Below, piece by piece: positions 4,952-27,900 of a stretch of DNA of 35,018 bases. Origin of the DNA: a virus; the IMG/VR virus record IMGVR_UViG_3300005471_000038, positions 1 to 35,018 of that record, one strand, 5' to 3'. The stretch's first letter is position 1; the number at the start of each line of letters is the position of its first letter. Both the position numbers and the translations under genes were made by a program. The notes beneath the pieces are model-generated. The model worked only from the letters and a program-made list of their open reading frames with translations, was not told where the DNA came from and ran no database searches.

Positions 4952-5004
4952 GTTTTTTATCTGCTTTGTGCTTGTTATGAAATGGAGAGGAAGGGAGAGA
5001 AAAG

Positions 5005-5664
5005 GTGAAAGCGAGAATCTTGGCTGAGTACTATAGAGACGCGGGCAGCTTCGTCACCAAAGAACAGAGCCGCTATTCGCTGGACACTATACGAATTGAG
5101 CCCGAGAAGGGCGTCGTTATCATCGCAACGGACGGCCACACGTTGGGCGTGTTCCATGATCAAGACGGCGAATGCCCGGCAGAAGGAATCATGCTTCGAT
5201 TCGATAGTTATCTTGCTGAGATGTGCGGCAAACAAAGGACGCTGGAAGTCAACGACGACGGTTCAGCGTCGCTGCTCAACCGAGGCCGGGAGGACGTTCG
5301 ATTCAGCCGCATTGAGTCGGACGGGTCTTTCCCGAACTGGCGCGCCGTTCTGCCGAAGTGGACACCTGACATTGAACGTAGCGATTACAACCCTGAATAC
5401 ATTGAGCGTTGCGCGAAGCTGTGCGGCGCTGCTTACCCACACCTCGCCATCTGGAGCGGAACGGAGATCAAACACGCCGAAGACGGGCCGATAGTAATCC
5501 GTCCATACGAGCGCGATGATTGTTTTTTTCTCGTGATGCCGATGCGCCGAAATGAAGATCTGGAGTGGCCCGAACTACTGGACGCGCTCAAGCCCCACAC
5601 CGATATCACCGAACCATCGGCGCAGGCAGAAACCGAACCGTTAGCAGAACCAGCAAACGCGTAA
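5005..5664 (+). CDS. DnaN-like sliding clamp, two-domain phage form
   Basis: A 219-residue protein; GTG at 5005 follows a purine-rich GGAAGGGAGAG. Three beta-clamp landmarks appear in order: ATDGHTLGVF (41-50), as in the middle domain of bacterial DnaN; SFPNWRAVLP (108-117), as at the junction to the last domain; and LVMPMRR (176-182), matching the extreme end of DnaN. At about 220 residues it corresponds to two clamp domains rather than three and is close in size to T4 gp45. An acidic tail (190-219) follows. A clamp encircles DNA and tethers partner proteins. No polymerase or clamp loader is in the window, so it would use host loader or polymerase, or serve nucleases or transcription. The RuvC-like gene starts 3 bases after its stop. 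Confidence 0.8.
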   Translation: MKARILAEYYRDAGSFVTKEQSRYSLDTIRIEPEKGVVIIATDGHTLGVFHDQDGECPAEGIMLRFDSYLAEMCGKQRTLEVNDDGSASLLNRGREDVRFSRIESDGSFPNWRAVLPKWTPDIERSDYNPEYIERCAKLCGAAYPHLAIWSGTEIKHAEDGPIVIRPYERDDCFFLVMPMRRNEDLEWPELLDALKPHTDITEPSAQAETEPLAEPANA

Positions 5665-10200: not shown

Positions 10201-11004
10201 ATGCAAGTTGCCATCTCGCCGCCATTTGCTTCCGTGCCGCCACCGCTCATCAGGCGTTACGCACAGCCGCGAAAGTTATCAACGCGGCGCGGGCGAGCGA
10301 AAGCAGAACAGAACGCATGGTGCATATCCTGTCAGCGGCCAATGGCGCGACACGGGAAGAATTTCTACTGTGCGACCTGTCATGTAGCGACGAGGATGGC
10401 GAGCGCGGGGATCCGAATCGCGACTTGCGCCACGCCGATCGCGAGTGCTGAAGCGAAGCCCTGGTGCTTGAGTTGTCGAAAGCCCTTCAGGCGATGCGGG
10501 GGAGAGCGATTCCGATGCCCTGGCTGTAACATATCGATCAGGGGTCACAAGGATAGACGAAAGCTTTCGCCCGCAAAGGAGCGCGAGATTGTCGGCCTGA
10601 TTCAGGCCGGCCATACCAACAAAGATATTGCGCTAAAGGCGCATTGCTTCCACCAAACGGTGGCGAGATTGAGAGCGGGTGTTCAGGCGCGATTATGCGA
10701 GTGCGGCGGATTGTTTCATCACAAGAGCAAGTGCAAGAAGCGACCGGGCTGGCAGTCAATGGTGCAGGAACGACGTTCGACGTTCGACGACTTGCTGGTG
10801 AGAGTAAATCGGAGAATACCCCGCGGGCTTGATGAAGAGGTGAGAGCAGAAGTGGCCCAACAAATGTTGGCTGACATAGCTCAGCTCATCGATGACACGC
10901 TAAGCAAGTCGCAGGAGTACATCCGGCGGTACAAGAAGCAGTATCCGTTTCAGCTTTATTCGCTTGATGCAAATCGCACTTTTGCCGAGAGGTTGGTTGG
11001 ATGA
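10201..11004 (+). CDS. Zn-ribbon / HTH regulator with sigma-like C-terminus
   Basis: A 267-residue protein. Two zinc ribbons are clear: C41-x2-C44, C57-x2-C60 and C89-x2-C92, C106-x2-C109. An HTH follows (about 123-158, LSPAKEREIVGLIQAGHTNKDIALKA), then a third Cys/His cluster (C166, C168, H173, H174, C178). The C-terminal region (VNRRIPRGLDEEVRAEVAQQ, 202-221, ending YSLDANRTFAERLVG) recalls a phage protein group related to sigma-70 region 2, where the motif reads R-P-x-LP-x2-VR-D-V-Q. I infer a transcription regulator, possibly for late genes. There is no SD before ATG 10201. It overlaps the next gene by 4 bases. Confidence 0.6.
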   Translation: MQVAISPPFASVPPPLIRRYAQPRKLSTRRGRAKAEQNAWCISCQRPMARHGKNFYCATCHVATRMASAGIRIATCATPIASAEAKPWCLSCRKPFRRCGGERFRCPGCNISIRGHKDRRKLSPAKEREIVGLIQAGHTNKDIALKAHCFHQTVARLRAGVQARLCECGGLFHHKSKCKKRPGWQSMVQERRSTFDDLLVRVNRRIPRGLDEEVRAEVAQQMLADIAQLIDDTLSKSQEYIRRYKKQYPFQLYSLDANRTFAERLVG

Positions 11005-17265: not shown

Positions 17266-17505
17266 ATGGCGCTTGAAGGCTTAACCCCTGTGCGCTGCCC
17301 GGCGAGTCGTCACTTGCTGTTCAACGCATCGTTCACCGGATCGGTGGAAATTAGATGTCGTTGCGGTCGTAACGTTGAAGTTGTCGACGGACAAACGACA
17401 CGAATCGTTGAAACCCAACCCCAGAGGCCAGAAGCCATGAGCTCAGAGCCCTTCAATTCGAGAGGACTTGGCTCATGCAACCAACCCAGTCGCAGGTTCA
17501 CGTAG
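17266..17505 (+). CDS. Com-like zinc-ribbon protein 1
   Basis: A 79-residue protein. The segment VRCPASRHLLFNASFTG then VEIRCRCGRNVEVV follows the Mu Com plan (RC-x2-C ... L ... IRC-x2-C), but with one metal cysteine replaced (C11-x2-S) and C-x-C at the second pair, so zinc binding may be altered. Its 3' end overlaps the start of the major capsid gene by 31 bases, much as Mu com overlaps mom. Mu Com is an RNA-binding translational activator that opens a hairpin over the mom start. A hairpin covering the capsid start codon lies inside this gene (17436-17477). Confidence 0.6.
   Translation: MALEGLTPVRCPASRHLLFNASFTGSVEIRCRCGRNVEVVDGQTTRIVETQPQRPEAMSSEPFNSRGLGSCNQPSRRFT
17436..17477 (+). promoter_or_regulatory. 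RNA hairpin covering the major capsid start codon
   Basis: CATGAGC (17436-17442) is exactly complementary to GCTCATG (17471-17477), whose last three bases are the capsid ATG. The 28-base loop contains the SD AGAGGA (17461-17466). An alternative 5-bp pairing, GAGCC (17446-17450) with GGCTC (17470-17474), also masks the region. Ribosomes finishing the Com-like gene would unwind it. Confidence 0.45.
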
Positions 17506-23797: not shown

Positions 23798-24316
23798 GTG
23801 GAAGCCGCAACCCAAGATCAAGTCTCAACGCGCCGCGATCAACGTTCGACAGCCGATCAAGCGAGCGAGCTGCAGAACCTTGCGAATATTCCTGTGACCG
23901 TTCCGGCGTTCGGCCGGGAGTACCAAATCTCTCGATTCAGCATTCACCAACTGGCCCAGGCGATGACATATCTCGGTCCGTTGCAATATGTGGTGCAGCA
24001 GTTCGCTGACAGACGTGAGGGGATATCGCAGGGCGAGATCGTTAGTATCGTGCTTGGCGCTTTGTCGATATCGGGTGAGTCGGTAATTGGGCTGATCTCC
24101 GTTGCGACCACCGAACCGATCGAGTGGATTGGCGCGCAGAAAGACGAACTCGCCGCGCTCGAGCTGCTCACGGCTACTATCGAAAAGAACACGCATTTTT
24201 TTTCCCAAGAGAACATCGAGAGGTACAAGGCGCTGCTCGGAAGGCTTCAGGCCGCGATCCCGGCGCTCTCTGGTCTTACGTCAACACCCTCGTCCAGCAC
24301 GGACACGACTACCTAA
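23798..24316 (+). CDS. Tail assembly chaperone G-like (zero-frame product)
   Basis: A 172-residue protein, GTG start at 23798 behind AAGG. Mostly helical: VPAFGREYQISRFSIHQLAQ, then VVQQFADRREGISQGEIVSI, then ELAALELLTATIEKNTHFFS. Position directly before the tape measure and after the tail tube identifies it as the G-type chaperone, which coats the tape measure during tail assembly. A U8 slippery run lies in codons 133-136. The zero-frame end (LSGLTSTPSSSTDTTT) is low complexity. Confidence 0.75.
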   Translation: MEAATQDQVSTRRDQRSTADQASELQNLANIPVTVPAFGREYQISRFSIHQLAQAMTYLGPLQYVVQQFADRREGISQGEIVSIVLGALSISGESVIGLISVATTEPIEWIGAQKDELAALELLTATIEKNTHFFSQENIERYKALLGRLQAAIPALSGLTSTPSSSTDTTT

Positions 24317-24696
24317 CAATTCTCCATCACTACACGTGGGATCACCTCACCAGATTCCTACGAGATATCGATGCGCAGCGACGACGCGATCGAATTCTCG
24401 GAATCTATGACCGGCGCATTGCACAAGCCGCCGATAAAGGCTTCAAGGAAGCGACTCGACGGCTTCGCGAAGAGGACCGACTCATCCGGATCAACGAGGC
24501 AAGGCTAGAAGGACGTCGATATCAGGAACCCTCTACAGAGCAAGAGCAAGCCGCTTTTGATGCTCAACAACACGAGTACTTCAGCGACTGGAGCGCGGGC
24601 GAGCAGGAGCGATTTAAGGGCCAGCAGTCTGCATTGTGGGCTTTGATTCCAGAGAAACACAGAGCAAAGGCAGAAAGATTTGCACGAGGACACTGA
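23798..24696 (+). CDS. Tail assembly chaperone GT-like (frameshifted product)
   Basis: A -1 shift at the U8 run gives about 135 residues of the G-like part joined to 164 residues read to 24696, near 299 in all. The added part (LTILHHYTWDHLTRFLRDID, IYDRRIAQAADKGFKEATRR, QHEYFSDWSAGEQERFKGQ) is helical and charged, and the HHYTWD-LT start matches T-type domains. This frame has no good start of its own. A G/GT pair before the tape measure is a near-universal siphovirus arrangement; GT recruits tail tube protein. The frame between 24205 and about 24265 is Arg-rich, so the precise slip point could be later. Confidence 0.7.
24196..24203 (+). promoter_or_regulatory. Programmed -1 frameshift site (U8)
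   Basis: Eight T residues, 24196-24203. In the G-like frame they read T TTT TTT, a perfect X XXY YYZ heptamer (CAT TTT TTT TCC). A slip of one base back enters the frame that is open from 24079 to 24696 and encodes the T-like domain. Confidence 0.75.
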
Positions 24697-24698
24697 AG

Positions 24699-24887
24699 AT
24701 GCTGATTGATGCTCGTTGCTATAACTGCAATCACTTCCTCTGCCAGATAAGCCATAACCTGGTGGGCGTGGTCAGATTAAAATGCTCGCGCTGCAAAAAG
24801 CTGAACGACATCTCACTCGCGACCGTCCTCAAACAAACAACTTCTGATAAGATGAAGACACCTGCCACAGTGAGCACCCGCGCGTAG
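24699..24887 (+). CDS. Com-like zinc-ribbon protein 2
   Basis: A 62-residue protein from ATG 24699 with GAGGA 8 bases upstream. ARCYNCNHFLCQISHN then VRLKCSRCKKLNDI has the full C7-x2-C10 ... C29-x2-C32 zinc ribbon and closely follows Mu Com (RC-NCN-LL ... IRCPRCK), including its length. Com proteins bind RNA and open a hairpin that hides a start site. A 7-bp hairpin masking the tape measure SD begins 21 bases after this gene ends. No mom-like modification gene is present, so the natural target may be the tape measure mRNA. Confidence 0.75.
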   Translation: MLIDARCYNCNHFLCQISHNLVGVVRLKCSRCKKLNDISLATVLKQTTSDKMKTPATVSTRA

Positions 24888-24907
24888 TATCGCCAGAGAG
24901 CCGAGTG

Positions 24908-24926
24908 GAAATCCAAAGAGGATTTC
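24908..24926 (+). promoter_or_regulatory. RNA hairpin masking the tape measure SD
   Basis: GAAATCC (24908-24914) pairs perfectly with GGATTTC (24920-24926) around a 5-base AAAGA loop. The SD AGAGGA (24917-24922) lies partly in the loop and partly in the right arm, 10 bases before the TTG at 24933. The structure and the TTG start should both lower translation. Confidence 0.5.
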
Positions 24927-24932
24927 TATCGG

Positions 24933-27900
24933 TTGTCAACACCTGAATCAAAGATCGTAATCGCAATTGAAACGCTGCTTAGAGGGCTACCCAAGGCAGA
25001 GCGAGATCTCGATCGATTCACTAAGAAGCTGCAGAACACCGCGAACGTTAAGCCTCGCGACACCGCGCAAAGTTTTTCACGAGCAACCCAGGGCGCAGAA
25101 AAACAGGCTCAGGCGTTTCGAAAACTTCAACTCGCATCCGCAGAACTGGACGCGCGACAGAAACGCCTTGAGGCGTCGCAACTGCGCAATGCAAACGCGA
25201 TGGAGCGTGCTCGCCTAGCGGCGGCGCGTCTCGAACGGCAAAAGCTGAGCCTCTCCCGTTCATCCGGAACTCTTGAGAAGTCACTCGGGAAGATCGGAAC
25301 GACACTAAACCGGGCTGGCAGCGGTCTCCAGTCGTTTGGACGGACCTTGTCGGTCGCCTTAACAGCGCCGCTCGCTGCTCTTGGTATCGTCGCGGTTGAT
25401 TCAGCGAAGGACATTGATGCCGAAGTCAATACGCTAAAAGCCTTCACGGGCGGTGCTGAAGCGGCGGAAGTACGGTTACAAGAACTGATCAAAACCGCCG
25501 GACAAACACCTGGACTGACAACATCGCTCGGATTGATGTTGGATTCTCAGTTACGCCTCGCGAAAGTAACGGTCAGCACGATCGATAAAGTCCTACCTGC
25601 CATCGGACGGTTGAATGCGGTCCAGCAAATAGAAGACCCGGCGCGATTTTCTCAAAACCTTGTTCAGTTAGTGTCGCAGAACTTTGAACGCACCGACCTC
25701 AAGGAGCTTGTCGGACAGTCACCGGTTGCTGGCCAGATCATCGCGGAGCTGCTCAACGTTGATTCTCCGGTCAACGCAAAGGCAGTTCGCGAGTCAGCGA
25801 AGAAGATGGGCCTCACAACCACAGACGCATTCTTTACTGCGTTTGCTGAGGCGGCCTCGCGAAATCAGGCGCTTAACAATGTTACTGAATCAATTGGCTC
25901 GCAACTCGCCAAACAAGCGGATCGGTTGACGTTCGCACTGCGACCTTTGGGGCTCGCGATCCTGAACGCGATCACGCCGGCGATAAACGCGCTCATCCCG
26001 GTTGTTGAAAAACTTAGCAATGGCTTTGCGAATTTACCCCAACCAGGACAACAGGCCTTGTTGGTGATCGGTGGTCTCGCGGCGTTGCTTGGACCAGCGT
26101 TGGTTCTCATTGGCGGACTTGTGACCGGGCTGGGAAGTTTGGCGGGGGCCATTGGCGTCGTCGCCTCCGTCATAGGCACAATCGGACTGCCGGCGCTCGC
26201 CGCATTGATCGGAGGGGTAGTAGCGATCATCGGTGAGTGGGTCGCGATCCTCGCGGCATTGGGTCTTGCCTGGAAAACGAATTTCCTCAACATAAGAGGA
26301 CTCGTTACATCGGCGGCAGCGGCGGTGTTGAGCGCCTTTCAACGCATCCGCGCAGTTATCCAGGAAGCTGTCCAGCGCATTCTTCCGGATCTCCAGTCAA
26401 TCACCGCAAAAGTGCTCGGATTCATCACCGCAGCGTGGGAGAGGTACGGGAAGTCCGTCGTCGAGGTCATCAGTAAGAGCTTTGAGGTCATCACCCGAAC
26501 CGTCGAAGCATTTTTGCGCTTCTTTGGGAACGTTGTCGATCTTATTGTGAAATTAATCGACGGAGACTGGCGTGGCGCGTGGAGGGCCTTTTCGCGAATC
26601 ATCATCAACGCGCTCGACAGCCTGTCCGAATTTTTCTCGAAAGCGATTCAGATAATCGATCGTGGCATGAAAACTATGGTCGCGTTCATTATCCGTCAGG
26701 CATTTGCGTTTGCGGATGCTGGCGCCTCTTTGGCCTCGCGTCTCATCCTTTCTTTGGCAGCGACCTTCATCGCGGGCTCGCCTCAAATCTCCGATGCTCT
26801 ATCGAAGATGATTCTGCTGGCTGCGGCAGATGTAGCACTTGGACCAGCAGCCGGAATCATACGCACCCGCTTAATTGCAGAAATGCGAAAAGCCGCGGCA
26901 GAAGGGTTGGCAGTTGGCGCTGGTAGCGCCGCTTTGGACACCGCCAACCTTGGCCCCAACGTGGGACCAAGTGCCGGGATCTTCCGCCAAAAGAGTGGAC
27001 GTGGAGCCGGGGGATCGTCGGACGGCAAGGGAGACAAACAGGCCGCGAATGCTCTCAGAAAGGCACAGAAAGAACTAGCCAAAGCACAGACAGAATTCGC
27101 CGACACTGAGGCCCAGAATCGGATTGCCCTCACACGCGCCGGCATCGAGCAACAGCTTGCGTTAACTCAAGATGGGCTAAATCGAGAATCCGAAGCACTG
27201 AAAAATAGTTTTGATGAACGTACCGCGTCGGTCCGGAAGTATTTCGAAGAACGTAAACGTTTGGAAGAAGCGCAGATTGATGCTGAGCTCGCCAAAGAAA
27301 AAGGCCTGAGCCGTGCACTCGACGAAGAATTCGCCGAACGTCGCAAGCAAATCCAGCGCGAATTTACCGATGTCGTTGAGGAAATCAATCGAGATCCAAA
27401 ACTAAAGGGACGCGCGAAAGAGATTGCGCTTCAGACGGCAGAGCAGGAAAAGCAAACCAAGCTCGCCAAAGAGTTTAATGATTGGGAAACGCAGGGCGCC
27501 GAAATCAGCACGCGTATTCTCCTGCTTCAAAAGAAGCGTAAGGATGTCGCGACTGATCTCACCCGTGAGGAACGGAACCTACTTAAAGAAATCGGGAAAC
27601 AAGAAACCGAGTTATCGGCCGAATTACTTGACGAACAAGGAAGCACGGCAGACGCCGCGGCTATAAGGCTCAGACAGCGATTCAAAGACACAATCGAAGA
27701 ATTGCGGGTTGATGTTTCCGGGCTCACGCCTGAATTGCAAGCAGCCTTTAATAATGTCGACATATCAACCCTGCGTGCTCACCTGGAAGAACTACCTCAG
27801 CCCGTAAGAGATCTGCTTGAACTGCTCGACATCGCTTCAAAGCGCGCGGTTATTCAGCAACAGAGTGTCGACGTCGAGCGAACGCTTGCTGAATTGAGAC

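Follow-up and report, generated by a model that had tools for sequence, protein, structure and literature searches.

The tail tape measure gene of this virus is probably controlled by a translational switch of the Com/TIS type, in which the switch of phage Mu has been retargeted to an essential structural gene; we put the probability of this reading at roughly 0.77. The analysis covered the whole 35,018-nucleotide stretch of viral DNA (hereafter the window) and related contigs. Three elements of such a switch are found: the regulator gene adjoins its putative target in all nine loci that carry it, the start of the target is sequestered, and a Com-type motif lies at or beside the sequestering stem. 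The initial annotation of the window had proposed that a Com-like protein governs the tape measure gene, and the comparison supports this, for the boxes and the hairpin are present in every locus with com and both are missing from two close relatives without it. These sequence data give good support to control of tape measure translation by Com. The features concerned are given in Table 1.

Table 1. Positions in the window of genes, RNA structures and sequence motifs related to the proposed switch.
Feature	Position	Strand	Basis
Com-like gene, degenerate (copy 1), 5' of the major capsid gene and overlapping it	17266..17505	+	phrog_13819, E 0.0065
Stem-loop with the capsid ATG in the stem	17437..17476	+	opening cost 13.8 kcal/mol, ranking third against 162 controls
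Chaperone for tail assembly: gpG at 23798-24316, probably extended to 24696 by a -1 frameshift	23798..24696	+	phrog_1442
com-like gene (copy 2), 62-aa Cys4 zinc-finger protein	24699..24887	+	ORF, profile matches, conserved cysteines
Distal Com-type box GAGCACC, 3' end of com (RNA sense)	24872..24878	+	box-pair pattern scan
Proximal Com-type box GAGAGCC; GCC pairs with the start-codon strand	24896..24902	+	fits SELEX motif GAGNNCC (PMC6483171)
Translation-inhibition-type stem-loop masking the Shine-Dalgarno sequence AGAGGA (24917-24922) and the first two bases of TTG	24896..24937	+	folding
Tail tape measure protein gene, TTG start, 1381 aa	24933..29078	+	phrog_1533, E 3.7e-19; other tape measure families

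The proposed regulator is encoded between the tail chaperone and the tape measure gene by an open reading frame that runs from an ATG at 24699 to a TAG stop at 24885-24887, and its 62 residues include two CxxC knuckles. It is matched by PHROG 6417, a 'translational regulator' (E 8e-7), and an alignment of eight tape-measure-linked Coms matches a reference profile built from 12 Coms (Mu, B3 and other phages) with P 97.35% and E 1.6e-11 (HHalign). Against Zn_ribbon_Com (PF10122) of Pfam the protein scores 17.2 bits, under the curated cut-off of 22.9. It had been credited with the full Com pattern; kinship with Com stands, membership at the level of Pfam does not. Because it falls below the Pfam cut-off, yet its kinship is supported by PHROG 6417 and HHalign, we file the protein, on sequence, as a divergent relative of Com, below Pfam-grade membership. 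The zinc cysteines (C7, C10, C29 and C32) and a fifth cysteine, C15, are invariant among the nine tape-measure-linked homologues; the second knuckle is longer by two residues in the Coms of contigs L029 and L034. The AlphaFold model has a pLDDT of 70 overall and of about 82 over residues 1-40, where the two-knuckle fold is predicted with moderate confidence, and the tail is of low confidence. A Foldseek search with this model returned no significant match.

The TTG assigned as start of the tape measure gene was confirmed: it aligns with the MADDTTRLII start of relatives, and no earlier ATG, GTG or TTG occurs in the tape measure frame between the com stop and the TTG. In L031 an in-frame GTG lies upstream of the ATG used as the tape measure start. 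Readthrough from com, or an in-frame fusion of the two genes, was considered and rejected: the two are in the same frame in the window (with the TAG between them), and in different frames in L022, L023 and L024. Further upstream, the tail chaperone gene carries a slippery heptamer (T_TTT_TTT / T_TTT_TTC) in the correct frame at 24196-24202 of the window (7482-7488 of L022); with the open -1 frame that follows to 24696, this is probably a programmed frameshift of the gpG/gpGT type.

The perfect 7-bp hairpin (GAAATCC-AAAGA-GGATTTC, 24908-24926) reported in the initial annotation is present exactly as described, at roughly half the true length of the structure; it is the top of a longer stem (24896-24937) in which AGCCGA.TGGAAATCC pairs with GGATTTCTATCGGTT. 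The folding energy of the long stem is -23.0 kcal/mol (z -3.87), with none of 200 shuffled sequences as good, and the leader stretch [-45,+12) around the tape measure start has a z of -5.15. The hairpin had been said to trap AGAGGA, which is true of the GGA, located in the stem, and not of the AGA, located in the loop; pairing also extends to the first two bases of the TTG. At 19.4 kcal/mol, the cost of opening this ribosome site is above that of all 162 control gene starts drawn from the window and related contigs (median 6.1 kcal/mol). A transcription terminator was rejected as a reading of the hairpin: no U-run follows it.

Protein searches with com copy 2 and with the N-terminus of the tape measure protein gave no matches among viral contigs and nothing but a weak match to a Com of Chuche among cultured phages; profile searches of genome contigs with capsid and Com alignments gave no matches. 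The comparison therefore rests on viral contigs reached by searches in which the queries were the major tail protein and Com alignments. Eight further contigs with com were found in this way (L022, L023, L024, L028, L029, L031, L032 and L034), and the nine leaders, which fall into six divergent groups, amount to about six independent cases. In all nine, com is directly 5' of the tape measure gene; this adjacency is kept in L022 and L023, where other DNA is inserted between the chaperone and com. com is missing from L033 and L036, whose tail modules are closely related; in both, the last part of the upstream frame and the tape measure start overlap. In a tree of tail proteins the phages lacking com form one well-supported branch inside the same group (the deeper branching order is not supported).

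The cost of opening the start region ranges from 11.7 to 19.4 kcal/mol across the nine loci with com, each within the top 5% of the 162 controls, against 6.7 and 7.5 kcal/mol for L033 and L036, which have neither a Com-type box nor the hairpin. Loss of the hairpin from relatives that keep com had been named as a finding that would tell against the proposal; every relative with com keeps a start hairpin. Comparison of the leaders shows conservation of the hairpin in structure and not in sequence. The window and L022/L023 have a long stem with UUG at its end; L029 has a perfect 8-bp hairpin (GCCAUAGC-guccu-GCUAUGGC) with AUG inside; AUG is also inside the stem of L032 (GCCAUUGG-acuuaa-CCAAUGGC); the stem of L031 is UGCCGG-auacaa-CCGGCA-UGGC and that of L034 is ACGUCGGAA..UUUCGACGU-AUG. 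Between the window and L022, six stem pairs are unchanged, three have changes in both partners, three in one partner, and one is broken. The weaker hairpins (L024, L028 and L034) have shuffle z values of only -1.4 to -1.9.

Strong folding of a tape measure start is also found elsewhere. The starts in phages B3 (19.0 kcal/mol), JBD67 (15.2 kcal/mol) and SM1 (16.1 kcal/mol) are strongly folded without the pair of boxes described below, and start occlusion alone is therefore not specific to com; folding is ordinary at the tape measure starts of DMS3, VW-6B, DLP5, phiSHP3 and Bhz63. The three folded starts are what might be expected if the hairpin merely lowered translation of the tape measure gene and had nothing to do with Com, but box and hairpin occur together in all loci with com and are absent from the two close relatives without it, which makes this explanation distinctly unlikely.

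The RNA motif recognized by Com is known from two sources: SELEX with a Mu-like Com yielded GAGNNCC, in two copies (PMC6483171), and the 19-nt Com site of Mu itself is GAAUGCC-UGC-GAGCAUCCC (PMC6483171). GAGNNCC was taken a priori from the publication; the broadened form GARNGYC was set after inspection of the data. GAGNNCC occurs in seven of the nine leaders with com; among the leaders used for comparison it is in 6 of 194 controls and is absent from all four tape measure leaders without com. For GARNGCC, which covers the box of Mu, the corresponding figures are 8/9, 1/194 and 0/4. All nine leaders contain two boxes, 20-30 nt apart, with the distal box at the com stop codon and the proximal box at the foot of the stem; the distal box is GAGCACC, GAGCGCC, GAGCAUC or GAACGUC. 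The leader of L029 (519-740) has exactly the two half-sites of Mu, GAGCAUC and GAAUGCC, in reversed order. A tandem pair GAG.[ACG]CC..GARNGCC within 30 nt is found just once on the + strand of the 35-kb window, in the tape measure leader, and a scan of the + strand of 112 kb of com-containing sequence located the box-pair pattern in the tape measure leader at 8/8 loci and in three other places.

In all nine leaders positions between -9 and +4 of the tape measure start are the pairing partners of the GYC in the proximal box, and because this box pairs with the start-codon strand, binding of Com and masking of the start are, on paper, mutually exclusive. One possibility is that Com is irrelevant here and that ribosomes finishing com unfold the hairpin in cis and re-initiate at the tape measure gene. 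The com stop lies just 26-34 nt 5' of the start in L029, L031, L032 and L034, near enough to disturb the stem, and the overlapping stop and start of L033 and L036 represent coupling to the chaperone frame. In L024 and L028, however, the com stop is 63-68 nt upstream, well clear of a stem that is nonetheless kept, and coupling leaves unexplained the conserved boxes that match the known RNA motif of Com. As a full account, coupling in cis is unlikely; it could make a contribution in the loci with a spacing of 26-34 nt, and not in L024 and L028.

A tape measure protein is required in few copies. It could be argued from this that Com is a repressor, its binding to the boxes stabilising the closed leader and so holding the protein to a few copies per virion. 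The proximal box, however, is part of the masking stem, and binding to a single-stranded or small-hairpin site should therefore compete with masking; moreover, the Com of Mu activates, and it binds a duplexed motif weakly (PMC6483171). We assign repression only a small probability and, by analogy with Mu, favor activation of tape measure translation by Com.

Under activation, the switch would operate as follows. In unbound mRNA the leader would fold, with the tape measure start codon, the Shine-Dalgarno sequence or both locked in the stem. Com, made from the gene just 5', would bind both GARNNYC boxes. The 5' arm of the stem has the GCC of the proximal box at its base, and bound Com would prevent the stem from forming or reopen it, allowing ribosomes to initiate at the tape measure gene. 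The ruler protein would be made only once Com, encoded right after the tail chaperone, had accumulated; since com lies 3' of the chaperone gene, synthesis of the ruler would wait for both chaperone and Com. We infer that this Com binds this leader RNA. The purpose may be the timing or dosage of the tape measure protein relative to its chaperone, and the control of virion stoichiometry suggested in the initial annotation would likewise be a conceivable purpose.

In Mu, Com binds a site beside the stem that holds the mom start, thereby freeing the start (PMC6483171). The tape measure loci share with com-mom a small zinc-finger protein of the Cys4 type and the same family, whose gene lies immediately 5' of the target, a target start codon in a stem, and half-sites of the GAAUGCC and GAGCAUC type whose C-rich end touches the masking stem (PMC6483171). 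They differ in that the target is a virion component, the tape measure protein, rather than a DNA modification function; in that the stem of Mu is inside the overlapping com frame, whereas the tape measure stems are intergenic or at the com stop; and in the spacing of the boxes, which is 3 nt in Mu and 20-30 nt in the tape measure leaders. The locus is not a mom operon, where the target is mom: here com adjoins the tape measure gene. The window had been described as having no mom gene, and indeed a search for relatives of Mom drew a blank in the records, possibly incomplete, of the window and of five relatives. Nor was a D12 methylase (PF02086) found beside com; two sub-threshold matches, in the L022 and L031 records, are far from it.

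A second known arrangement is the cassette of com with dam or another methylase gene (B3, Phipami28, Mana, AP3, Smp131 and others), which resembles the tape measure loci in having com beside its target and GARNGCC in the target leader, and differs in that the target is a DNA methyltransferase. Among cultured phages, 14 leaders of genes downstream of com were compared (methylases, mom and some unknown genes), and GARNGCC is present in 12. One or more such boxes were seen in the com-downstream leaders of L054, L055, L073-L076, L079, L080, L082 and L021, and many of these leaders have a stem over the start. A GARNGCC box, often with a start stem, is thus a possible general rule for Com targets, as judged from these leaders.

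The com-dam cassette of phage B3 (L054, 4992-6023) is flanked by the tail chaperone and tape measure genes, a position identical to that of com in the tape-measure-linked loci; a 14-bp hairpin precedes the B3 tape measure start, whose leader has no Com boxes. The position of this cassette suggests how com may have come to precede the tape measure gene. It also fits the idea that com and the leader are relics of a com-methylase cassette that has lost its methylase and now has no function, as does the fact that in cultured phages com mostly precedes methylase or mom genes. A relic, however, would not account for the incorporation of the tape measure gene's own start region into a stem in nine of nine leaders, for two divergent architectures that achieve this (a TTG ending a long stem versus an ATG inside a perfect 8-bp stem), or for compensatory stem changes and intact zinc cysteines. 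We regard a relic as highly improbable.

That Com-like genes precede genes other than mom is already known. In Pseudomonas they are found before bacteriocin and lysis genes, their general role being described as unexplored (PMC6240691), and before a levansucrase gene (PMC3899960). These cases are alike in that the neighbor is not mom (PMC6240691, PMC3899960); they differ in that the neighbors are cargo genes, whereas here the neighbor is an essential virion gene and box and stem are conserved across a group of phages. In P. syringae a stop codon introduced into the com upstream of lscB left levan visibly unaffected (PMC3899960), and a neighboring com is therefore no proof of regulation. Control of a tape measure gene in trans by a dedicated RNA-binding protein, Com included, was not found in the literature searched, which contained few subscription journals.

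The initial annotation proposed a control system with two targets, each Com-like gene being upstream of a structural gene with a folded start. The tape measure part is supported by the comparison above; the capsid part comes from a single genome. Copy 1 falls short of a full Com: its match to the Com profile has P 55% and E 1.2e-4 (HHalign), and its finger is not intact (CPAS.. and RCRC), the second cysteine being missing and CxC standing in place of CxxC. In relatives it was not found, save as a match to their com copy 2. The capsid start is nonetheless unusually folded, at 13.8 kcal/mol versus 2.6-9.4 kcal/mol in 14 capsid relatives with no com gene seen there; in the flanks examined, these capsid-only relatives have no Com-like gene beside the capsid gene. 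A pair GAGGCC-A-GAAGCC, unique in the window, lies at 17424-17436, 5' of the capsid stem-loop, this form of the box being a variant that was chosen post hoc. On sequence grounds the capsid gene is a possible target of Com.

A broader reading is that Coms are general, transplantable activators that act through a bipartite GARNNYC box on a start-codon stem, that in this group of phages they have been wired into virion assembly, with the tape measure protein made only after chaperone and Com, and that in the window phage a second, diverged Com acts likewise on the major capsid protein. In this full form the proposal is tentative and on balance doubtful. If control of the tape measure gene by Com is real, the com module of Mu, hitherto treated as a DNA-modification curiosity, would be an RNA switch that is portable and that has been redirected in evolution to a structural gene of essential function, and there would be a sequence rule for Com targets: two GARNNYC boxes, the second overlapping the start-codon stem. 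The rule could then be applied to the com genes linked to bacteriocin and levansucrase genes, including those with the unexplored role (PMC6240691).

Two minor observations concern other genes. An unrelated contig, L053, contains a 47-aa Com-like open reading frame (4983-5126) before a terminase-type gene; it was rejected as a further case of start masking, the hairpin there being terminator-like and not a start-masking stem. In the window itself, positions 10201-11004 encode a protein of 267 aa that contains several CxxC knuckles and weakly matches the DNA-binding family phrog_664 (E 2e-4).
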